A DNA stretch of 64,000 nucleotides from Hyphomicrobiales bacterium. GTDB lineage: Bacteria > Pseudomonadota > Alphaproteobacteria > Rhizobiales > Beijerinckiaceae. The notes below the pieces were generated by a model. That model saw only the letters and a list, made by a program, of their open reading frames with translations, had not been told where the DNA came from and did no database searches. This document shows, piece after piece, positions 23,136-39,043 of the stretch (within the stretch, counting starts at the first letter, position 1; every line of letters begins with the position of its first letter). Both the position numbers and the translations under genes were made by a program. The DNA lies in the NCBI GenBank assembly GCA_019075865.1, contig JAGXAN010000001.1, positions 62,001 to 126,000 of the forward strand, given 5' to 3'.

Positions 23136-23801
23136 CTACAGCGACCGCAAACGCGGGGCGACCAGGTTGAAGATCCGGCGATTGCTGAGCCAGCCCGCGC
23201 CGACAAAGGCGAAGGTCGTGCCAAAGTTCCAGATCAGGATAATGGCCGAAGCATCGAGCACGTGGAAGGTGGTGAGCGCGGCGGCAGTCAAGGCCGAGAC
23301 GGCGAGGCTGCCCATCAGCGCTACCTGCAGGGGCCGCAGCAAAGCCGCGTGGCGAAGCATCAGCAGCAGCATCAACGAAAGCGGCAGGCTGCTTAGCACC
23401 AGCGTTGCCAAGCAGCGCAGGGTCTCGCCTGAACTCACGCCATTGGCATCAATCTTCACCCAATGGGTCGCGCATTGATAACCGATATTGCCAATCCACA
23501 ATAAAAACGAGGGGATTGGCAAAGCCAGCCAAAGGCGTGAGCGATCGGGCAGGCTGACCATGAAAGCCGAACAGGCCGCCAGAATTCCGGTAAGGGCCAT
23601 ACCCGCCAGCGACAGCGAGAAATCGGCCTGCTGCAATTTGAGCCACAGATCGGGCCGCACCCCCTGGCTGATGGCAAGCAGGCCAAGCACGATCATGGCC
23701 AATACCAACCACAAAATCGCCCGCGTCAGTGGCTTTTGCAGCGGGCGAACCGGCTGCAAATTCCGTGCGAGATCTTCGATCAGATCGGGGGTAGTAGTCA
23801 C
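23136..23801 (-). CDS. nrsF: NrsF-type (DUF1109) membrane anti-sigma factor
   Basis: The 221-residue protein has about six membrane helices and the DUF1109/NrsF layout, including the N-terminal TPDLIEDLARNLQPVRPL and a C-terminal helix pair ending in GAGWLSNRR. GTG start overlaps the sigF stop (GTGA). In Caulobacter NrsF binds SigF at the membrane and releases it under metal stress; two conserved cysteines matter there. Here C77, C110 and C130 are present. The position of the usual HCxxD motif seems to read HVLD (H180-V181), so the second conserved Cys appears lost. That alignment is by eye. Confidence 0.88.
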   Translation of the reverse strand: MTTTPDLIEDLARNLQPVRPLQKPLTRAILWLVLAMIVLGLLAISQGVRPDLWLKLQQADFSLSLAGMALTGILAACSAFMVSLPDRSRLWLALPIPSFLLWIGNIGYQCATHWVKIDANGVSSGETLRCLATLVLSSLPLSLMLLLMLRHAALLRPLQVALMGSLAVSALTAAALTTFHVLDASAIILIWNFGTTFAFVGAGWLSNRRIFNLVAPRLRSL

Positions 23802-24418
23802 TGGTCTCTCCCGGGGGTCAACAGGGCGCGCAACGATTTCATGGCGCGGTGCGTGGCAATTTTGAGCGCGCCAACCGACATGCCCGTTTTCAATGCCGCT
23901 TCGTTCAAACTCAACTCCTGCAATTTCAATAAATGGATCGCCTGCTGCTGGGCAACAGGCAGTGAGGCAATCGCGGCGGCGAGACTTCGGGGCTGCACCA
24001 TCGGTTCGTCACGCCCATTGCCATCGACAAACTGTTCGTGATCTTCGGTCAAAGTGGTTTCACGTTTGCGGTTGCGGCTGGTTTTGCGCAACCGGTCGAT
24101 CAGCCGTCGCTGTGCGATGGTGGCAAGCCAGGGCCCGAATGGCCGCGACTTGTCATAGGTATGGCGGATGGTGTGCAGCGTCAGCAAAATATCCTGGACG
24201 CCATCCTCGATATCTGCGGCGTTGAAAAGCTGGCGCGCCGCCAATGCGCGCAGATACGGGGTTATCTCGATCAGCAACCGCCGGTAGGCGGCTTGGTCCC
24301 CCTCCTGCCCGCGTGCCATCAAAATGGCCCAGTCAAAATCCTGCGGTGCCTGCATTGGCGCGCCGGCCCCCACCACGGTCAGTTTGGGTCGAAAGCCGCT
24401 GGTGTGCCCTGGTCTCAT
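23798..24418 (-). CDS. sigF: ECF sigma factor, SigF type
   Basis: The 206-residue protein has sigma region 2 (YLRALAARQLFNAADIEDGVQDILLTLHTIRHTYDKSRPFGPWLATIAQRRLIDRLRK) and region 4 (IASLPVAQQQAIHLLKLQELSLNEAALKTGMSVGALKIATHRAMKSLRALL). ATG 24418 overlaps the doxX stop (ATGA), which fixes the start; an internal ATG at 24355 is possible. It shares an operon with its presumed anti-sigma nrsF and with the bufferin genes. The promoter at 27178-27203 has the Caulobacter SigF sequence, so it probably transcribes its own operon. Confidence 0.9.
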   Translation of the reverse strand: MRPGHTSGFRPKLTVVGAGAPMQAPQDFDWAILMARGQEGDQAAYRRLLIEITPYLRALAARQLFNAADIEDGVQDILLTLHTIRHTYDKSRPFGPWLATIAQRRLIDRLRKTSRNRKRETTLTEDHEQFVDGNGRDEPMVQPRSLAAAIASLPVAQQQAIHLLKLQELSLNEAALKTGMSVGALKIATHRAMKSLRALLTPGRDQ

Positions 24419-24954
24419 GTTCCGCTCTGGCCCACGGCCAATTTGTTTGCGCCCCGGTTTCCCCATTTCGCCAGCCAGTGATCTAGCGACAATGCGCCGG
24501 GTCCGATGGCGATGATCGCCAGGGCGAGCGCCGCCCAGGGCAGATGAAAATTCGCCCAACCCTCGGGAACCACCAACTCAATCACCGCGGTCATCATCAA
24601 CAATCCGAAGGCGGCAAAGCGTGTGCCAAGGCCAATCACCAGCAACACCGGCAGCACCACTTCCGCAATGCCATCGATATAGGCCAGCGTATCGGGGAAT
24701 GGCAGGCTGTAAAGCCCCCCGAAGAGATGCAGCTTGAATTCATTTTCAAACAGATAGGCAGCGGCGGGGGCCGGATTGAGAAAACCGTCCCATTTGGTCA
24801 GACCCGAAAACAGGAAAGGCACCGCCAGCGCGACGCGCAGCACCGGCTGGGCGATGAGCCGCGCCAGATCTTGCGCGCCCGAATAAGCGGATACCGCGTA
24901 CTGCGCCATAAATTGCGGCATGGATACTGGCGCGCTTGGATGGGACAGGCTCAT
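24415..24954 (-). CDS. DoxX family membrane protein of the bufferin operon
   Basis: This is a 179-residue protein with four membrane helices typical of DoxX (LRVALAVPFLFSGLTKWDGFLNP; DTLAYIDGIAEVVLPVLLVIGLGTRFAAFGLLMMTAVIELVVP; WAALALAIIAIGPG). ATG 24954 overlaps the bufC stop and its stop overlaps sigF. DoxX proteins accompany many bufferin operons, Caulobacter's SigF-controlled one included. A role in membrane redox chemistry or in handling the peptide or metal is plausible but unproven. Confidence 0.85.
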   Translation of the reverse strand: MSLSHPSAPVSMPQFMAQYAVSAYSGAQDLARLIAQPVLRVALAVPFLFSGLTKWDGFLNPAPAAAYLFENEFKLHLFGGLYSLPFPDTLAYIDGIAEVVLPVLLVIGLGTRFAAFGLLMMTAVIELVVPEGWANFHLPWAALALAIIAIGPGALSLDHWLAKWGNRGANKLAVGQSGT

Positions 24955-25775
24955 GGATCGTTCCTTTTCACGTCGGGTGGGGCAAAACCGAAGCCGACAA
25001 TGCATTGCGCTTCCAACAGGCCGGCGAGATTGGCGGAAAGGTCAAATTCGGGATCGGCAGCAAGCGCCCGCTGCAAAGCGGTGACGACGCTCGCCTGATC
25101 CAGCAGGCTTGAAATGAAAACTTCGCTGGAGCCCTGGATTTCGCGCAATTCAACCAGCGCTTCCGGTCGGCTGACCAGCACGCATTGCGCCTCACCAAGA
25201 TCAACCGGTTGCAACGGTTCGTCGCCAACATTCATCTGCCAGATTCGCAGCGCCGGACCGGTGCAGGACAATACCTGTACGGAAGGATGCAATTGCAGGT
25301 GAAGTCGGTCAAAATCCTGTGGGGCAATGGCAAGGAATGCGGACGGATCGAGCGCGTCGGCATCTTCGGCATGGTAAGCCTCAAGATAGGCCTGCTCGAT
25401 GCGCGCCACATCGGCCAGATAGGGCAATTCACGCGCGGGCGTGAACCTCGCAATAAAATCCGGGAATTGGCCGCCATATTGGAGCAGGATCGGCGATTGC
25501 GGCGGGCAGGACAGCACAAAAGCCTGCGCCATGGCTTGAAAGAACGGCGTGCCCACCAATCGCAGCACGGCTGGAAATTTGTCCTCCAGCAAATGGATCA
25601 AGCCCATCACCACATTGTTGCGATACACGCCAAAGCGATGCGCGCTGGCCACACCATCGGGCCCGAGCAGACCGGCGGGCGCGGCGAGCGCCGGGTTGAG
25701 TATGGCATCGGCGAAAGCACGCTGGCGCTCATGCAGGGGCGGGGCGGGCAGCCCGGATTCAGCCGTGGCGGGCAT
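24951..25775 (-). CDS. bufC: BufC-type partner protein (DUF2063)
   Basis: This ~274-residue soluble protein has the DUF2063 N-terminal domain ([84 protein letters not shown]). It acts with the BufB oxidase as its partner and precursor-binding protein in bufferin maturation, by family knowledge. ATG 25775 has a G-rich upstream stretch; ATG 25796 is possible. It overlaps bufB by 17 bases and doxX by 4. Confidence 0.85.
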
Positions 25776-26661
25776 GGCGCGCCCCCCGCTTTGCATGGTC
25801 AGCCATGATCGCTTCGGCCTGGCAAGCCTCGGCAAACAGCACGTCCCACGACGGAATATCGGCATCGCGCTCGATCAGGGTTGCCACGGCACCGGTGCGC
25901 TCAATTACCTCACCATAGAGGTGCCAGACGGCCGCATCGACAGCGCGGTCATGCGTGTCGATCAGCAATGGCCGACCCAATTCATCGGCTTCAAGATTGT
26001 GGCCCGCAAGATGGATTTCCGCGACATGCGCCAGGGGAAACGCCGCAATATAGGCGCGCGCATCTGTTTGCTGGTTGGTGGCCGATACATGCACATTATT
26101 GACATCGAGCAGCAGCCCGCAATGCGTGCGCCGCACGATCTCGGTGATGAAATCGGTTTCCGACCAGGTGCTTTCGGCAAATCTCAGATAGGTCGAGGGG
26201 TTTTCCAGCAGCATCCTGCACCCCAGCCGATCCTGCACTTCGTCAATATGTGCGCACACCCGGCGCAGGGTCGCGCCATGATAGGGCAGCGGCAACAGAT
26301 CATTGAAAAACCCGCCATCATGGGTCGACCAGGCCAGATGTTCGGAAAAACTAGCCGGTTGATAGCGTAAAATCAGTTGATGCAACCGCGAAAGATGCGC
26401 GCGGTCCAGCGGACGATCCGCGCCGATGGAAAGCCCGACCCCATGCAGCGACAGCGCGTAACGCTCGCGGATATAAGTCAGGTTGCGATGCGGTGGCCCA
26501 CCCGCACCCATGTAATTTTCAGCATGAACCTCAAAAAAGCCGATCTCCGGCTCATTTTCGATGATTGCCGCATAATGGGCCGGCTTCAGGCCAACCCCGG
26601 CCCGTGTCGGCAGCTGTGCGGCCGCCACTTCCTGCAATGGGGCGTGCATCGGGGCGATCAT
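25759..26661 (-). CDS. bufB: BufB, multinuclear iron oxidase (DUF692/MNIO) of bufferin maturation
   Basis: The TIM-barrel enzyme of ~300 residues carries the MNIO metal-ligand set: [59 protein letters not shown] and LIERDADIP. Such enzymes use a di- or tri-iron centre and oxygen to rework cysteines; BufB converts bufferin cysteines to thiooxazole heterocycles. ATG 26661 has AAGGAGA 7 bases upstream and is preferred to ATG 26667 and to the TTG at 26751. It follows bufA after 86 bases and overlaps bufC. Confidence 0.9.
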
Positions 26662-26747
26662 GTGCATTCTCCTTGCCTGTGCTTGAAGTGGATGGGGGCA
26701 TTGGCTTCCCCCATCCAAATAATCAACCGCGCAAGCGGCGGCTGGGC

Positions 26748-27092
26748 TCAAGCCTTGGGCGTCAGGCTGCCGTCACCCTTGGGGGTGTGCATGGTGGTGC
26801 AGGTGCCATGGGCAACCAGTTTGAAGGCATTGCCCTGATAATCGGCGCTGCTGGTGCCTGCGCAGGTGGTGCCGGCGCCAGCATAACAATCATTGTGGCC
26901 CTTGAGCGCCACGCCAAAGCACTTTTCGAGTTTCTGGGCCATGGCCCGCTTCTGGTTGGCTGCACGGGTTTGCATCATCTGCTCTTTGGTCATCATTTTC
27001 ATGCCGTCGGCATTGGCAACCGGAACCATGGTTGCGGCGATGGCGGTGGAAAAAGCGGTGGCGAGCAACAGTGCGGTCGAGCTATTGGACAT
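26748..27092 (-). CDS. bufA: BufA-type bufferin precursor peptide (DUF2282)
   Basis: The 114-residue precursor has a signal peptide (hydrophobic to about residue 26, cleavage near ANA-DG) and a DUF2282 core: [28 protein letters not shown] and HGTCT. The four cysteines are C58, C69, C77 and C98. In the Caulobacter bufferin the middle pair becomes thiooxazoles and the outer pair a disulfide, and the peptide binds copper. By position C69/C77 and C58/C98 would match, which is inference. GGAGGAAA ribosome site; first gene of the six-gene operon. Confidence 0.9.
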
Positions 27093-27177
27093 AAAATTTC
27101 CTCCAGAGATTGGCGTCAGGGAATACGGAGCCTGCTGGCCCGCGTGATGTGCCGTTGCCGACCCATCTGAAACCTAA

Positions 27178-27203
27178 TTCGCTCGCAGCCTCGCAAAGGT
27201 TAC
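27178..27203 (-). promoter_or_regulatory. SigF-type promoter of the bufferin operon
   Basis: On the minus strand GTAACC (27203-27198), exactly 16 bases, then CGAA (27181-27178) lie 86 bases ahead of bufA. This equals the motif described for Caulobacter SigF promoters (GTAACC-N16-CGAA). No other copy followed by a gene start was noticed here, so the six genes probably share this one promoter. Confidence 0.75.
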
Positions 27204-33156: not shown

Positions 33157-34194
33157 ATGCGCAGACTGCAAATCTCTACACGGGCGGGGGCCGCCTATCT
33201 GCTCGGTTTGGGCAGTTTCCTGGCACTCACGACACCAGCGGCTGCGCATGTAAAGTGGTTTGCGCCCTATAATGTAGGCGCGCAGCCGGATCAGTTGCAC
33301 GAAGTGCTCGATAGCAATTTTTTTGTCCTGATCGCTCTCTCCATTGCATTGATCGCATTCGGCGCCTTCATCGAGACGACCTTCATTGGCAAGGCGATTT
33401 TGCGGGCCCTCGACAGCGTAACAGGCATTCTCAACATTGGCAGCGAATATATCATGCGCGCCATTGTCGGCGTGTTTCTCGTCGCGCTCTGGCAGCACGG
33501 CGGCATCATTCTGACACCCGAACTCAAGACCCAGTCCACTTTCATCCCCTGGCTCCAGTTATTGATGGCCATTTCCTTGATTTGGCGGCCGACAATGCTG
33601 TTTGCGGCGGTGGGGATTTTCTTTCTCTACGGTTTTGCCCTGATGCATTATTCGGTATTCCACATGATGGATTACCCGATATTCCTGGGTATAGCCGTCT
33701 ATTTTGGGGCGCTGAGCCTCAACCGAAAGGTGTTTTCAATTGAACCGGTGACCTTTTTGCGCTGGTCAACCGGGCTGACGCTGATCTGGGCCTCGGTCGA
33801 AAAATGGGCTTACCCCGAATGGACATATGCGTTGGCCGTTTCGCATCCAGGCATGTTCGGGGGATTCTCCAAAGAATTTTTTCTCTGCGCCGCCGGCGCG
33901 GTGGAGTTTGCGCTGGCCTTCTGCCTGCTGGCCACGCCGTTCCTGCGTCGCACCAGCGCCATCATATTGCTGGCAATGTTTGTCGGCGCGATCCTGCCTT
34001 TTGGCATGATTGATGCCATCGGTCACAGCGCCATCATCGCCGTGCTGCTGGTGGTGATCGGGGATAATGCACCGGCCAATAACAACAGGCAGGAAATCTG
34101 GCGCAGCGCGGTCGCCTTTTCCGGGGCGCTGGTTCTGGTTATCGGCAGCTATTACGCGCTGCACGCCGCCATCTACGCCACGCTGATCCTGTGA
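33157..34194 (+). CDS. DoxX-like polytopic membrane protein with N-terminal His after the signal peptide
   Basis: The 345-residue protein has a signal peptide (AYLLGLGSFLALTTPAAA, cleavage predicted at 30/31) followed directly by HVKWFAPY, so the mature chain would start with H31. About eight membrane helices follow. The C-terminal half (RWSTGLTLIWASVEKWAYPEW, FLCAAGAVEFALAFCLLATPFLRR) is DoxX-like. A mature N-terminal His is a known copper-binding feature in CopC and related proteins; metal binding here is speculation. Function unknown. A CtrA-type box lies upstream and a cupredoxin gene converges. Confidence 0.72.
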   Translation: MRRLQISTRAGAAYLLGLGSFLALTTPAAAHVKWFAPYNVGAQPDQLHEVLDSNFFVLIALSIALIAFGAFIETTFIGKAILRALDSVTGILNIGSEYIMRAIVGVFLVALWQHGGIILTPELKTQSTFIPWLQLLMAISLIWRPTMLFAAVGIFFLYGFALMHYSVFHMMDYPIFLGIAVYFGALSLNRKVFSIEPVTFLRWSTGLTLIWASVEKWAYPEWTYALAVSHPGMFGGFSKEFFLCAAGAVEFALAFCLLATPFLRRTSAIILLAMFVGAILPFGMIDAIGHSAIIAVLLVVIGDNAPANNNRQEIWRSAVAFSGALVLVIGSYYALHAAIYATLIL

Positions 34195-34214
34195 GACCAA
34201 ACATCGGGCGTGCC

Positions 34215-34598
34215 TCAATTCTTGGGCGTTTCCTCGACCTTTATCGATAGCTTCATGCGGGGGTGAATGCCGCAAAGCACGGTAAAGGTCCCAACCTCAG
34301 ACATGGTCACGTCATGGCGGCTGCCCGGTGTCTGGTCACCGGAATCGTAGCTGAAGTGTTTGGACTGGATATAGGCGTGATGCAGCAAATCGCCATCGTC
34401 ATTGAATATCTCGATGATGTCGCCGCGCTTCAAATTGAGGTTGTTCGGGGTGAATTTCTGCCCCTTCTGGGATATGATGAACAGGCGTTTACGCTCATTG
34501 GCCACACTGGTGCTTTTTGTCGCGTAATAAGTAAATCCGCCAGCCAACATCAATGTCGCCAATAATGTAATAAATTTGAATTTAGCTGAAATTTTCAT
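34215..34598 (-). CDS. Cupredoxin-domain protein (methylamine-utilisation type)
   Basis: The 127-residue protein has an N-terminal helix (residues 8-26, signal peptide or anchor) and a plastocyanin-like domain. The type 1 copper ligands are visible as H73 or H74 (LLHHAY), C109, H112 and M115 (VLCGIHPRM). It is probably a periplasmic electron carrier. No mau dehydrogenase genes are present, but a MauG-like di-haem protein lies 3.5 kb away, with a GGDEF-EAL gene between. Confidence 0.85.
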   Translation of the reverse strand: MKISAKFKFITLLATLMLAGGFTYYATKSTSVANERKRLFIISQKGQKFTPNNLNLKRGDIIEIFNDDGDLLHHAYIQSKHFSYDSGDQTPGSRHDVTMSEVGTFTVLCGIHPRMKLSIKVEETPKN

Positions 34599-34716
34599 GC
34601 GGAAACGCTTTCATTGTGGCCTTCTTCCATGACAGACCATCTTGATTAAATATTTATGTAAGTATTTCACTCAGGTGATTTTTGACGAATTTTTATAAAT
34701 CTCAATCTAAGTCACT

Positions 34717-34728
34717 GTCATTAATGAC
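34717..34728 (+). promoter_or_regulatory. Perfect 12-bp palindrome in the cupredoxin / GGDEF-EAL divergent gap
   Basis: GTCATTAATGAC is a complete palindrome in the AT-rich 193-base gap between the divergent cupredoxin and GGDEF-EAL genes. It could serve as an operator for one or both; no regulator is known. Confidence 0.35.
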
Positions 34729-34751
34729 TAATTAAACTCCTCCCCGATAGA

Positions 34752-34782
34752 CTGAATTTGGACGCATCCTGGCCAAATTCAG
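34752..34782 (+). promoter_or_regulatory. 10-bp leader hairpin directly before the GGDEF-EAL ribosome site
   Basis: CTGAATTTGG (34752-34761) pairs perfectly with CCAAATTCAG (34773-34782). The last base touches the AGGGGA ribosome site ahead of the TTG start at 34792. The stem is well placed to affect translation. Confidence 0.5.
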
Positions 34783-34791
34783 GGGAATAAT

Positions 34792-37683
34792 TTGACTATT
34801 CTTGAGTTGAAACAAGACCCCGCCCCCTCAACACCGCTTCTGCGCAGGTGGCTACGCCATGCGCTGTTTCATTTCAAAACCATTCGCGGCCGAATACTTC
34901 TGGTGTTTTTGGCGCTCGGCATTGTTACCTCCGTCATGGGAACCTACGTGGTTTACAGTGTCAGCACCGTTGGCAACTTGGCCCGTGATACCTTCGACCA
35001 TTCGTTGATGGCAACCAGTTACGCGCGGGCTGCCGGGTCGGATTTTGCCAGGATCCAGACAGATCTGGCGCGTCTCAAGGCTGTCAGCAGCGACGCCGAG
35101 AAACAAGCTTTGAAAGCCAGCATAGTTGCCGGTGGTGCCTCGCTGATGGAGGACCTTGATATTGTCAGCGACCGCGCGCAATCCGAGCGCGCCCGATCGG
35201 CGATCGACGCTTTGCGCGCCAATTTCAACAAATGCGGTGTTTTCGCCGGTGATTACAAGGCATTAACGACCCTCGACGACTGCATGAAGGGTGCCAAGCT
35301 CAAGGACAATGACGGCATACGTGCCCTCAATCTCGTGGTCAATTATGTGGCAGGCGACGCTTTCGATCAAAAATTGGCAACCCAGGCCCTTGTCGCGACG
35401 CAGGAGAAACTGAACATTGCTGCCACGCTCGCGGTGCTAGTGCTGTCGGCTCTCGTACTTCGGCGTCTTTCGACCCAGATCACCAGTTCGGTTGGCCGCG
35501 CTTCCAAAATCGCCACCGACATAGCCGCCGGCCAATTGGATATTGATATCCCCCGCGCCGGCAAGGATGAAATCGGCTGGCTCATGATCAGCATGCGGGT
35601 CATGCGCGACAATATCCGTGAATTGCTCGGGCGCGAGATCAGCCTGCGCGAGGCAGTCCAGTCGCGGCTGGAGGATACGCTCGCCCTCTCGCAGGATGGC
35701 ATTGTCGTTACCGACGCCTTTGGTGAGATCATTCTGGCCAATCGCCAGGTCATCTCTTTCATTACCCATCACGATGGCGCGATGAACCGCATTGAACATG
35801 CCTCGGACGATGAATTCGCGAAATTGGCGATTCAACGTCACAAACACGCCCTGCGCGCCCTGATCGACGCGGCGGCGGGGCCCGGTGGCGTTCTCAACAT
35901 CAACGGCCGGTGGTTGCGGGTGAGCCAAAGCCAGACCCGCGAAGGGGGCCTGATGCTGGTTCTGGCGGATGTTTCCACGCTTAAGGAGCGCGAAAACAGC
36001 CTGAATATTGCCAATCAGCAATTTGATGCGGCGCTGGAGAACATGTCGAGCGGCCTCTGCCTTTATGGCCCCGACGGCAAGATTCAGGTCGTCAATGACA
36101 ACTTTCGCCGCATCTATAGTTTCGACAATTCACTGGTTCATCCCGGGCTTTCCTATGTTCAGATTCTGAAATGGATGGCGCAGAATTATGAGATGGAAGA
36201 CGCAGAGGCTGAGATAGATCTGGTCAGTGAAGTCAACCAATTACCCAAAGATTTCAGCCGCAATGTCAACCTGAAGGACAACCGGGTGATTTCGGTTATC
36301 AGCAAGCAATTGCCGGATGGCGGCTGGATCGAAACGCACGAAGACATTTCGGAACGCCGCCGGGCAGAAGGCAAGATCGCATTCCTCGCCTCGCATGACG
36401 TGCTGACGGGGTTGGCAAACCGTGCTCTGCTGGCCGAACGGGTCGATTACGCAGTGTCGGGTCTGGGTCGCGGCGTCGGCTTTGCCCTGTTCCTGCTTGA
36501 TCTTGACCATTTCAAGGATGTCAACGACACGTTCGGCCATCCCATGGGAGACGAATTGCTGTGCGCAGTGGCGAACCGGCTTTCAGCGCTGGTGCGTGAC
36601 GTGGACACGGTCAGCCGTTTGGGCGGCGATGAATTTGCAATTCTTTTGGCCGGTTCGATGGCGGCCAATGAGGCCGAGGCGATCGCGCAGCGGATTGTCA
36701 AATCCCTGTCGACCACCTTTGTCATCAAGGGTCAGGCTTTGAGCATTGGCGTCAGCATTGGCATAACCCTCGCGCCCAACGATGGCTCGGACGGTGACAA
36801 GCTACTGAAAAATGCCGATGCAGCACTCTACCTTGCCAAGAACGAGGGTCGCGGTGTAGCGCGCTTCTTCGATATGGAAATGGATGTTATGCTGCAAGCC
36901 AACAAGGATCGCGAAGCCGATCTGCGGCGGGCTGTCGCCAACAAGGAACTGGAAGTCCATTATCAGCCATTGCTTTGCATAGACTCCATGGAAATCGCCG
37001 GATTCGAGGCGCTGGTGCGCTGGCGCCATCCAATCAAGGGCATGATCCCGCCCATGGAATTCATCTCGCTGGCCGAAGATATTGGCTTGATCGGGGAGAT
37101 TGGCGAATTCGTCCTTAATACAGCATGTGAAGCTGCCACCCACTGGCCCAAAAGCATCAAAATATCGGTGAACGTTTCGGTTTCACAGGTGAAATCTGAC
37201 GATTTTGTCGAAGTGGTGACCAAATGCCTGCGCCAATCCCGCCTGTCACCCTTGCAGTTGGATCTGGAAATCACCGAATCCCTCGTCATGAACAAGAACG
37301 CCGGCACAGTCGCCAAATTGCATCAACTGCGCGAGATGGGCGTCGATATCAGCATGGACGATTTTGGCACCGGCTTCTCGTCGCTGAGCTACCTTGGCAG
37401 CTTCCCCTTCAGCAAGATCAAGATTGATCGCAGTTTTGTCGCCGGCCTCACCACCAATTCGGGTTCGCGCGCCATCATCGAGGCGGTGTTACTGATCAGT
37501 GCCAGCTACAAAATGAAAGTGACCGCCGAGGGCGTTGAAACCATCGAGCAGTTGGAAGCGTTGAAGAAAATCAAGTGCAATGAGGCCCAGGGATATTTGT
37601 TCAGCAAACCCATGCCCATCAGCGACGTGGAAAAATTCATATCGGAGCGCAATTACGCCAAACTTGAGAAATTGTCGGCATGA
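34792..37683 (+). CDS. Membrane-bound GGDEF-EAL cyclic-di-GMP enzyme with HAMP and PAS domains
   Basis: The 963-residue protein starts at TTG 34792 (AGGGGA upstream). Order: membrane helix about 33-53, periplasmic sensor to about 200, second helix, HAMP about 220-275, PAS-like segments about 285-390 and 400-515, GGDEF domain with intact RLGGDEFAILL near 611, EAL domain from about 690 with FEALVRW near 739, then DLEITESLVM and DDFGTGFSSLSYL. Both catalytic signatures look complete, so it could make and degrade c-di-GMP. The periplasmic part is rich in Ala, Asp and Lys and fits no sensor I recognise. Neighbours suggest a redox or copper signal. Confidence 0.9.
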   Translation: MTILELKQDPAPSTPLLRRWLRHALFHFKTIRGRILLVFLALGIVTSVMGTYVVYSVSTVGNLARDTFDHSLMATSYARAAGSDFARIQTDLARLKAVSSDAEKQALKASIVAGGASLMEDLDIVSDRAQSERARSAIDALRANFNKCGVFAGDYKALTTLDDCMKGAKLKDNDGIRALNLVVNYVAGDAFDQKLATQALVATQEKLNIAATLAVLVLSALVLRRLSTQITSSVGRASKIATDIAAGQLDIDIPRAGKDEIGWLMISMRVMRDNIRELLGREISLREAVQSRLEDTLALSQDGIVVTDAFGEIILANRQVISFITHHDGAMNRIEHASDDEFAKLAIQRHKHALRALIDAAAGPGGVLNINGRWLRVSQSQTREGGLMLVLADVSTLKERENSLNIANQQFDAALENMSSGLCLYGPDGKIQVVNDNFRRIYSFDNSLVHPGLSYVQILKWMAQNYEMEDAEAEIDLVSEVNQLPKDFSRNVNLKDNRVISVISKQLPDGGWIETHEDISERRRAEGKIAFLASHDVLTGLANRALLAERVDYAVSGLGRGVGFALFLLDLDHFKDVNDTFGHPMGDELLCAVANRLSALVRDVDTVSRLGGDEFAILLAGSMAANEAEAIAQRIVKSLSTTFVIKGQALSIGVSIGITLAPNDGSDGDKLLKNADAALYLAKNEGRGVARFFDMEMDVMLQANKDREADLRRAVANKELEVHYQPLLCIDSMEIAGFEALVRWRHPIKGMIPPMEFISLAEDIGLIGEIGEFVLNTACEAATHWPKSIKISVNVSVSQVKSDDFVEVVTKCLRQSRLSPLQLDLEITESLVMNKNAGTVAKLHQLREMGVDISMDDFGTGFSSLSYLGSFPFSKIKIDRSFVAGLTTNSGSRAIIEAVLLISASYKMKVTAEGVETIEQLEALKKIKCNEAQGYLFSKPMPISDVEKFISERNYAKLEKLSA

Positions 37684-37779
37684 ACGCCATGTCGACAAAT
37701 TTGCGTGTCACAAGGATCAATCGCCCGTCGCCGTCCTGCCTTTTTGTGAAAGCGACCCTTCAAGCTTAAGGATCATATC

Positions 37780-37941
37780 ATGTTCATCATTACCGGAATT
37801 GCCAGTGTTACCCTTGGCGCGGCGTTTGCCCTCAGCGCCCCAGTCAAGAGCCCGAAGGCCAAATCCTTTGAGCGCCTGGCCGGAAGCCTGCTGATCCTGG
37901 GTCTTGGCGCCTTTGGTTTGGGTATGCGCTATTTCCCGTGA
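37780..37941 (+). CDS. 53-residue membrane protein
   Basis: ATG 37780 has AAGGA 8 bases upstream. The product has a first helix MFIITGIASVTLGAAFALSA, a polar turn with Lys and Arg (VKSPKAKSFERLAG) and a second helix SLLILGLGAFGLGMRYFP. It is a small two-helix inner-membrane protein of unknown function, just downstream of the GGDEF-EAL gene. Confidence 0.6.
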   Translation: MFIITGIASVTLGAAFALSAPVKSPKAKSFERLAGSLLILGLGAFGLGMRYFP

Positions 37942-38029
37942 AAGCGCGATTGCGGGCCCGCTCGGGCCGCGCCCATGACCGGTTAAGTTTCAAAAAGGCA
38001 TGATGCGCCAAAGCCGCTGACTGGCGGCC

Positions 38030-39043
38030 TTAAGGATTTTTCGCGCTGGCGTCATGGGGCACAGAGGACAGGCTGTTCAGGAACGCCACCAAATCGTGCC
38101 TCTCGGCCTCGTTCAAGCCCAGCGGCTTGATCACCACCGATTGGCTCGGTCGCGCTATGCCCCCCGAATTATAAAAGCCCACCACATCGTCCAGCGTGGC
38201 CAGCGAACCATCGTGCATATAAGGCGCATGGGTCGCGACATCACGCAAGGTTGGCACCTTGAACGCGTATTTCAACTTGAGCGAGGTCTGAAAATAGCGC
38301 CCGCGACCGATATTATGGGTATCTGGCAGGCCGATATCCTGAAACGATCCATCCGTGAAGGCCCAGCCACTATGGCATTGGGCGCAATGGCCACGGCCGT
38401 TGAATATCGCAAAGCCGCGTTGGGCGGCCGGGCTGATTGCCTTTGCGTCGCCCTGCACGAAACGATCAAAAGGTGCAATGCCGGAGACGATGCCACGCTC
38501 AAAGGTTGCCAGCGCCATCTCGATGTTGGTTTTGTTGATTTTGCGGTCAGGGAAAGCGCCGGCAAATGCCGTCCGGTAATGACCGGAATTTTCAAGCCTG
38601 CCGATCAGCCGCGTCGCTGAAAGATTCATGTTGGCGGCACCGGTGATCGGCCCGAATGTCACGGCCTCAAGCCCCGCATATTTTCCATCCCAACCCAGAA
38701 AATCAAGCCATGCATTGTTCAGTAGGCTGGGGGTTTTCAACGCGATTTCGCTGCCCGTTGAACCATGCGAGGTTTTGAGGTTATTGCTCCATCCAAGGTT
38801 CGGATTATGGCAGGAAGCGCAGGAAATGTTACGTCGGTCGGATAAAAGATTATCAAAAAACAGGGTCTGGCCCAGTGCCCATTTGGCCCGCGAATAGGGG
38901 TTGGATTTAGGGTAAGGCACGTCCTTGGGGCGTTTGTATTGAGCCCCCGCCGATGTCGCAGGGCCAGCAAACCGCTTCTCCAATGGAAAACCGATTGTAA
39001 CTGCGAGCCCTAAGATTGTGAGTCCAAAAAGTTTGTTTTTCAT
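38030..39043 (-). CDS. MauG-like di-haem cytochrome c peroxidase family protein
   Basis: The 337-residue secreted protein (signal peptide about residues 1-20) has two c-type haem sites, CASCH at C75-C78-H79 and CAQCH at C220-C223-H224, with family features FFDNLLSDRRNISCASCHNP, DRFVQGD and VPTLRDVATHAPYMHDGSLATLDDVVGFYNSGG. Members reduce hydrogen peroxide or oxidise protein residues (MauG). Length fits the family. The reductant could be the cupredoxin encoded at 34215, an inference from proximity. Confidence 0.9.
   Translation of the reverse strand: MKNKLFGLTILGLAVTIGFPLEKRFAGPATSAGAQYKRPKDVPYPKSNPYSRAKWALGQTLFFDNLLSDRRNISCASCHNPNLGWSNNLKTSHGSTGSEIALKTPSLLNNAWLDFLGWDGKYAGLEAVTFGPITGAANMNLSATRLIGRLENSGHYRTAFAGAFPDRKINKTNIEMALATFERGIVSGIAPFDRFVQGDAKAISPAAQRGFAIFNGRGHCAQCHSGWAFTDGSFQDIGLPDTHNIGRGRYFQTSLKLKYAFKVPTLRDVATHAPYMHDGSLATLDDVVGFYNSGGIARPSQSVVIKPLGLNEAERHDLVAFLNSLSSVPHDASAKNP

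Follow-up and report, generated by a model that had tools for sequence, protein, structure and literature searches.

Known sigma-controlled bufferin systems and the locus

The SigF regulon of Caulobacter crescentus unites a bufferin operon (CC3254–3257) with the genes of the extracytoplasmic function (ECF) sigma factor SigF and its anti-sigma factor NrsF (CC3253–3252). It is induced by copper and needed for copper tolerance (PMC8224329), and it extends to another bufferin operon and to an operon of the msrPQ type. It is among the closest known relatives of the six-gene operon described here, bufA-bufB-bufC-doxX-sigF-nrsF, which with its promoter occupies positions 23136–27203, on the minus strand, of a 64,000-nucleotide stretch of a Hyphomicrobiales genome (contig JAGXAN010000001.1; 'the window' refers to this whole stretch). 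In Cupriavidus metallidurans the gigPABT and rpoQ-rsqA genes similarly combine a bufferin core, an ECF sigma factor and a membrane anti-sigma factor, and are induced by gold and copper (PMC10304878). The EcfF–OsrA pair of Bradyrhizobium japonicum (ECF16/DUF1109) contains an anti-sigma factor of the same family; methionine sulphoxide reductases are listed in its regulon and no bufferin genes are named in the parts of the source covered (PMC3420878). Finally, DUF2282, MNIO, DUF2063, DoxX, sigma factor and NrsF genes are all named as members of the Buf1 clusters, the thiooxazoles of which chelate copper (Antoine et al. 2025; PMC12452194).

Comparison with these systems makes it probable that the locus is a Buf1 bufferin operon with its own switch, a metal-triggered NrsF–SigF loop serving to buffer periplasmic metal, most likely copper. 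All six families of the Caulobacter system are present, as is its SigF promoter sequence GTAACC-N16-CGAA, and the likeness to that system proposed in an earlier, sequence-only reading of the window therefore holds for gene content. It does not extend to layout or to the class of the sensor. In Caulobacter sigF-nrsF stands apart as a unit with a promoter to itself (PMC3511200), divergent by gene numbering, whereas in the window sigF overlaps doxX and is not preceded by a SigF motif; and the Caulobacter NrsF carries C131 and C181 where the window NrsF has C130 and His180. The gig/rpoQ locus likewise differs in being a divergent 'divergon' in which rpoQ is expressed from RpoD (PMC10304878), and B. 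japonicum OsrA in that its C179, needed for the response to H2O2, is a His in the window. The order of genes with the sigma pair last may well already appear in the gene-order figure of Antoine et al. 2025 (PMC12452194); neither classes of NrsF nor a bufA-bufB hairpin are described in the parts of that paper covered.

Organization of the operon

All six products score above the Pfam gathering thresholds, in agreement with the gene identities first assigned from the sequence. The operon begins with bufA (27092–26748), which encodes a DUF2282 bufferin precursor of 114 amino acids (PF10048, 78.5 bits, cut-off 22.4). This is followed by bufB (26661–25759), the MNIO bufferin maturase, which also exceeds the NCBIfam equivalog cut-off for such maturases (NF050167, 381 bits against 310), and by bufC (25775–24951), encoding the DUF2063 partner protein (PF09836, 89 bits). 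The membrane protein gene doxX (24954–24415; PF07681, 58 bits) has an HvfX-like product that scores below the corresponding NCBIfam cut-off. Finally, sigF (24418–23798) encodes the ECF sigma factor (PF04542/PF08281, Sigma70_r2/r4_2, 47.5/34.6 bits) and nrsF (23801–23136) a six-helix anti-sigma factor of the His180 class defined below (PF06532, 85 bits, cut-off 26.8). The genes from bufB to sigF start with ATG and nrsF with GTG. As previously noted, the six minus-strand genes are tightly packed and overlap from bufB on, by 17 nucleotides at bufB/bufC and then through ATGA, ATGA and GTGA. The sole intergenic gap, of 86 nucleotides, separates bufA from bufB, the start of which is preceded by AAGGAG.

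BufA contains four Cys residues in total, in EKC, NDC, TTC and GTC contexts, behind a Sec-type signal peptide that was judged by eye, cleavage probably following ANA. This four-Cys precursor, a BufB-type MNIO and an adjoining DUF2063 gene place the operon, as a new member, among the Buf1 bufferin clusters already known; as a bufferin operon it is ordinary. The sigma pair belongs with SigF/NrsF (ECF16): an ECF sigma factor gene adjoins and overlaps that of a six-helix NrsF/DUF1109 protein, with GTAACC-N16-CGAA before the target operon. What is of moderate interest is the His180 class of NrsF, the small putative regulon and a set of stem-loops. Solved relatives of BufB are 3bww and MbnB 7dz9; a comparison of BufC with PDB sequences gave no credible match, and an Rfam scan of the operon gave a single match, under the gathering score. 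The assembly (18 contigs, 3.29 Mb, 99% complete) contains one match each to DUF2282, MNIO (PF05114) and NrsF, so this is the sole locus of its kind within it. Among the matches listed, the top match to BufB from a named organism is in a Bradyrhizobium metagenome-assembled genome (MAG), at 72%.

The layout was compared across 99 NrsF rows, drawn from 80 named BufB loci, 71 regions around NrsF and the window. The BufB loci are the best 80 of at least 564, so that loci with the sigma pair last (sigma-last) are over-represented through their nearness to the window, and the rows are not independent (five, for example, are Mesorhizobium). A further sampling supplied 46 of the NrsF regions, from which already-sampled matches, fragments (G325 C34, G342 C197, G176 C1) and weak partial matches (G102, G210, G216) were left out. 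Sixteen rows are sigma-last, 37 divergent or otherwise arranged and three sigma-first, while 43 have no bufferin gene nearby, meaning within a region of 4–15 kb. The sigma-last rows come from a Bradyrhizobium MAG, Ancylobacter, Aminobacter, Rhizobium sp. S152, a Rhizobiaceae MAG, five Mesorhizobium, a Rhodobacterales MAG, an Edaphobacter MAG (Acidobacteriota; possibly misbinned), three genomes of the window's genus including its own, and locus L181. The sigma-last layout is thus an established variant that is not unique to the window, and chance does not explain the six-gene arrangement, which recurs together with this NrsF class at 14 further sigma-last loci. A Rhizobium plasmid (L232) has the same order plus one extra gene. 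In L183 and L185, which fall in the otherwise arranged group, bufA-doxX-sigF-nrsF lie in line with bufB-bufC on the opposite strand.

The SigF-type promoter

An exact match to the Caulobacter SigF motif (PMC3511200), GTAACC-N16-CGAA, lies at 27203–27178 on the minus strand, its first base 111 nucleotides upstream of the bufA ATG. The sequence-only reading ended its operon on that very base, 27203, leaving the promoter unmentioned. With spacers of 15–17 nucleotides the exact motif has 15 matches in the genome, 14 of which fall inside mechanically called open reading frames (ORFs) of more than 150 amino acids, the bufA site alone lying outside. The motif precedes bufA in all 15 sigma-last loci compared, 11 times exactly at N16, once exactly at N15 and three times with one mismatch; as gene starts were taken at the starts of hidden Markov model domains, promoter distances outside the window are approximate.

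No SigF motif within one mismatch precedes sigF in any of the 15 loci (in the window, none within two mismatches in the 350 nucleotides upstream), nor does a relaxed GTAAC-core site with CG[AT]A at spacers of 15–17. By comparison, among 21 divergent loci GTAAC[AG]-N15/16-CG[AT]A is found before sigF in 11; before bufA, eight of the 21 have a motif within one mismatch, the others having weaker sites or none. Sigma-last operons therefore appear to lack a SigF promoter dedicated to sigF. This supports the suggestion, made from the position of the sigma pair at the end of the operon, of positive feedback. The suggestion stands as plausible, and is tempered because NrsF would be made from the same message as SigF. 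A one-transcript, self-amplifying circuit is well supported by the arrangement of genes and sites but unproven.

The sixth base of the −35 element of the bufA promoters is C or T in 17 of 17 His180-NrsF loci, and A or G in all Cys180 loci with a GTAAC-core match (16 of 21). The split is not absolute, since the published Caulobacter motif (Cys class) and a trx site in a Cys-class genome (G024) end in C. The pattern hints at a shift in promoter specificity between the NrsF classes.

The NrsF sensor class

In OsrA, C129 is needed for sigma binding and C179, predicted to be periplasmic, for the response to H2O2; of the Cys mutants one is constitutive and the other, C179S, uninducible (PMC3420878). 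Caulobacter NrsF C131 and C181 are the same pair; the Cys mutants are partly de-repressed, and the single mutants still inducible (PMC3511200). The two sets of mutants thus do not point to one common way in which NrsF-type anti-sigma factors sense metals or oxidants.

In the window NrsF the first Cys of the pair is present as Cys130 (codon 23414–23412), which is invariant in a 27-row alignment, and the place of the second is taken by His180 (codon 23264–23262), an alignment anchored by D183, conserved in at least 90% of the 27 rows. An additional Cys, Cys110 (codon 23474–23472), lies at the end of helix 96–112. The window NrsF therefore belongs to a variant class and not to the canonical C129/C179 type. 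Position 180 is His in 28 of the 99 rows, Cys in 69 and Glu in two, and Cys110 is found in 26 of the His180 rows and in none of the Cys180 or Glu180 rows. A tree from which the sensor columns and the positions next to them had been removed groups the His180 rows in a single clade (ultrafast bootstrap/Shimodaira–Hasegawa-like approximate likelihood ratio test, 99/97), within which the 15 sigma-last His180 rows form a subclade (100/92).

The combination Cys110/Cys130/His180 (CCH) is found in 15 of the 16 sigma-last rows, L181 being of the Cys class. A correlation of sigma-last order with the His180 class, considered on the strength of these 15 rows from the first sample, was rejected: NrsF proteins of the CCH type are also present in divergent loci (L089, L190, L229, L230, L233, L234), in sigma-first L062 and in eight rows without a nearby bufferin. 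The sigma-last order is therefore a feature of one subclade rather than of the sensor class. Of 70 plasmid records with an NrsF match, six were compared (three from Burkholderia and one each from Cupriavidus, Rhizobium and Nitrobacter), and their six full-length NrsF proteins all have C110/C130/H180. L231 also contains a partial NrsF-like ORF, the seventh of the set, in which position 180 is His and the other sites are absent in the alignment. His180 NrsF–sigF pairs with no bufferin genes in the region covered were observed in L063, L067, L188, L189, L191 and L192.

The AlphaFold2 model of NrsF, made with the 27-row alignment (predicted local distance difference test 85.6, predicted template-modelling score 0.80), consists of six long helices. 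C110 is at the end of helix 96–112, C130 lies near the start of helix 124–148 and H180 comes just after helix 157–179, which would place all three on one, periplasmic, face of the membrane if the N-terminus is cytoplasmic. Comparison of the model with PDB folds gave no match at E 0.001 or better. From the alignment and the model we infer that the His180 NrsF is a rewired sensor, perhaps one that binds metal. In the titles, abstract openings and parts of papers covered in the open-licence literature, no account of a His-class NrsF was found.

A putative regulon and a probable link to copper

A relaxed motif, GTAACN-N16-CGWA, occurs at 16 sites in the genome. Besides that of bufA the convincing site is GTAACT-N16-CGAA at G000:C9:41427–41402, outside the window, the first base of which is 76 nucleotides before the ATG of trx. 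The trx-ccdA operon with this site (G000:C9:40217–41427; L207:4218–5428) encodes a periplasmic thioredoxin with a WCPTC motif and, overlapping or abutting the end of trx, a CcdA/DsbD-type protein. The exact GTAACC-N16-CGAA precedes trx in G001 and G002, both of the other same-genus genomes with the bufferin operon; a fourth, G003 (73% complete), gave no match to NrsF or trx. In 13 NrsF-bearing relatives the core motif before trx is exact in five and has one mismatch in four, one trx ORF (G025) not having been located, and in six genomes lacking NrsF it was not found before trx. A comparable thioredoxin/DsbD-like pair is controlled by EcfF in B. japonicum (PMC3420878), and trx-ccdA is likely a second member of the SigF regulon.

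In the sister species G002, trx-ccdA and the bufferin operon are neighbours, separated by a set of copper-chaperone genes, SCO1-PCuAC-SCO1 (L064:2094–3842). This adjacency points to copper. The window's genome has two SCO genes, sited elsewhere and not beside the bufferin operon.

The bufA-bufB stem-loops and the BufA spacer

Two hairpins lie between bufA and bufB on the minus strand, the first (26744–26724) terminator-like by scan and the second (26717–26689) with a perfect stem of 10 bp and no U-run. The RNA of 26750–26662 folds with −34.5 kcal/mol (z −2.42; z −1.5 for a longer stretch). After removal of gaps outside 40–200 nucleotides or with N, 90 of 99 gap rows were kept, of which 89 were grouped for folding. 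Perfect stems of at least 8 bp are found in 39 of the 90 bufA-bufB gaps against 14 of 87 other same-strand gaps, one of 90 regions upstream of bufA and 2.4 expected from random segments of the same loci; dinucleotide shuffles lead to an expectation of about 1.1 among 89 gaps. Folding z is below −2 in 34 of 89 gaps, and by eye the stem sequences vary between loci. The stem-loop may be a processing, stability or partial-termination element favouring precursor over maturase. No account of such a hairpin was found in the titles, abstract openings and paper parts covered in the open-licence literature.

Between the likely signal peptide and the first Cys, BufA has a spacer of 29 residues with six Met (27008–26922, minus strand). 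Counted over the 35 residues that lead up to the first Cys, Met occurs at least five times in nine of 12 readable sigma-last BufA proteins, a count that omits three misparsed rows (L071, L073, L076), and at most four times beside Cys-type NrsF, where such a Met-rich spacer is thus nearly absent. Six Met in this stretch also occur in three loci without sigF (L077, L081, L120), and some spacers elsewhere are Met-free (EFTAAQKK type).

Proposed mechanism and alternatives

In the proposed mechanism metal, or a related periplasmic stress, would cause the membrane-bound NrsF to release SigF. This would then transcribe from the single promoter before bufA through to nrsF, so that sigma and anti-sigma rise together to give amplification with a built-in brake, and would also drive the trx-ccdA operon. 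Before BufA is exported, BufB and BufC would turn its two central Cys into copper-binding heterocycles, a modification reported for Buf1 of Caulobacter. The bufferin would buffer periplasmic metal, most likely copper; the hairpins probably let the precursor message outlast or outnumber that of the maturase. As Cys110/Cys130/His180 replace the Cys129/Cys179 pair, the trigger would be metal binding rather than oxidation of Cys179. The sigma-last layout, which occurs in several Hyphomicrobiales as well as on two MAG contigs labelled Rhodobacterales and Edaphobacter, would then be a compact metal-responsive module of six genes with one known promoter.

Several observations weigh against this mechanism or parts of it. 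The exact SigF motif is not enriched genome-wide (15 sites, compared with 74 for a reversed control pattern), and its count was rejected as genome-wide evidence, weight being given only to position and conservation. A basal promoter must exist, because SigF whose synthesis depended wholly on SigF could never begin to accumulate, and no such promoter stood out (two sigma70-like sites, 1.4 expected). The bufA-bufB hairpins could lower read-through to sigF, and the two sister-genus loci L064 and L066 are without a perfect stem of at least 7 bp, so that the stem-loop is not shown to be conserved in this genus. The one-mismatch trx sites are weak, about 0.13 being expected per region by chance (our own arithmetic). 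Deletion of rpoQ in C. metallidurans raised gig expression and did not abolish it (PMC10304878). For the sensor, OsrA C129 is predicted to lie in the membrane (PMC3420878), two of the 28 His180 rows lack C110, and the association of C110 with His180 may be a single event rather than proof of contact, because both arose in one clade.

That NrsF-His180 is a separate anti-sigma class directly binding periplasmic metal, probably Cu(I), through Cys110, Cys130 and His180 is a tentative proposal, possible but with less than an even chance of being correct. If true, metal coordination replaces a thiol-oxidation trigger, with two sensing chemistries on one fold and the same bufferin response. A less likely rival to the proposed mechanism is that NrsF-His180 senses oxidation or reactive chlorine through Cys110 and Cys130, the swap being drift of a redox sensor. 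Known NrsF-family proteins do respond to H2O2 or HOCl (PMC3420878, PMC8315932), two Cys remain, the putative regulon holds a thioredoxin–CcdA reducing pathway, and the L231 plasmid relative adjoins genes annotated as molybdopterin-dependent oxidoreductase and cytochrome b. However, the uninducible OsrA C179S shows that the known redox response does not survive the loss of that Cys (PMC3420878), His180 is kept in 28 of 28 rows of the clade, and two plasmid relatives have metal-resistance genes close by (chrA/merTP in one case, copper oxidase/TolC in the other). A natural exchange of the sensing Cys for His, accompanied by an added Cys while the output genes stay the same, makes what NrsF reads testable.

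It is unlikely that most sigF-nrsF transcription starts at an internal or housekeeping promoter that escaped recognition, with little feedback and an incidental gene order. The dependence of rpoQ-rsqA on RpoD, the weak autoregulation of Caulobacter sigF under chromium (PMC3511200) and the basal SigF required in any case would fit such an arrangement; the gapless overlap of genes from bufB to nrsF and the consistent lack of a SigF motif before sigF argue against it, as does the rise of Caulobacter sigF by 2.2–4.7 log2 under copper (PMC8224329 Table 2). That the metal buffered is gold, chromate, cadmium or mercury instead of copper seems similarly improbable. Caulobacter SigF responds to chromium and cadmium (PMC3511200), gig responds to gold as well as copper (PMC10304878), and chrA and merTP adjoin one plasmid relative, yet loss of Caulobacter sigF harmed tolerance of copper and not of chromium or cadmium (PMC8224329), and it is copper chaperones that adjoin the operon in the sister genome.

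Other sites and neighbouring genes

A weak SigF-like site, GTAACA-N16-CGTA (L197; G000:C7:150397–150372), lies 84 nucleotides before an ORF that by eye resembles a SulP sulphate permease; situated inside an ORF of 142 amino acids, it is at best a poor candidate for the regulon. A group of copper-type genes at 33–39 kb of the window, which the sequence-only reading had tentatively joined to the same physiology, was rejected as a component of the operon's system, since not one of the 16 relaxed SigF motifs in the genome falls there. This region (33157–39043) encodes a membrane protein with no Pfam match at E 0.01, a small cupredoxin-like protein scoring under the Pfam cut-off (17.5 against 27 bits), a protein that is GGDEF/EAL-like by eye and a MauG-like di-haem peroxidase.

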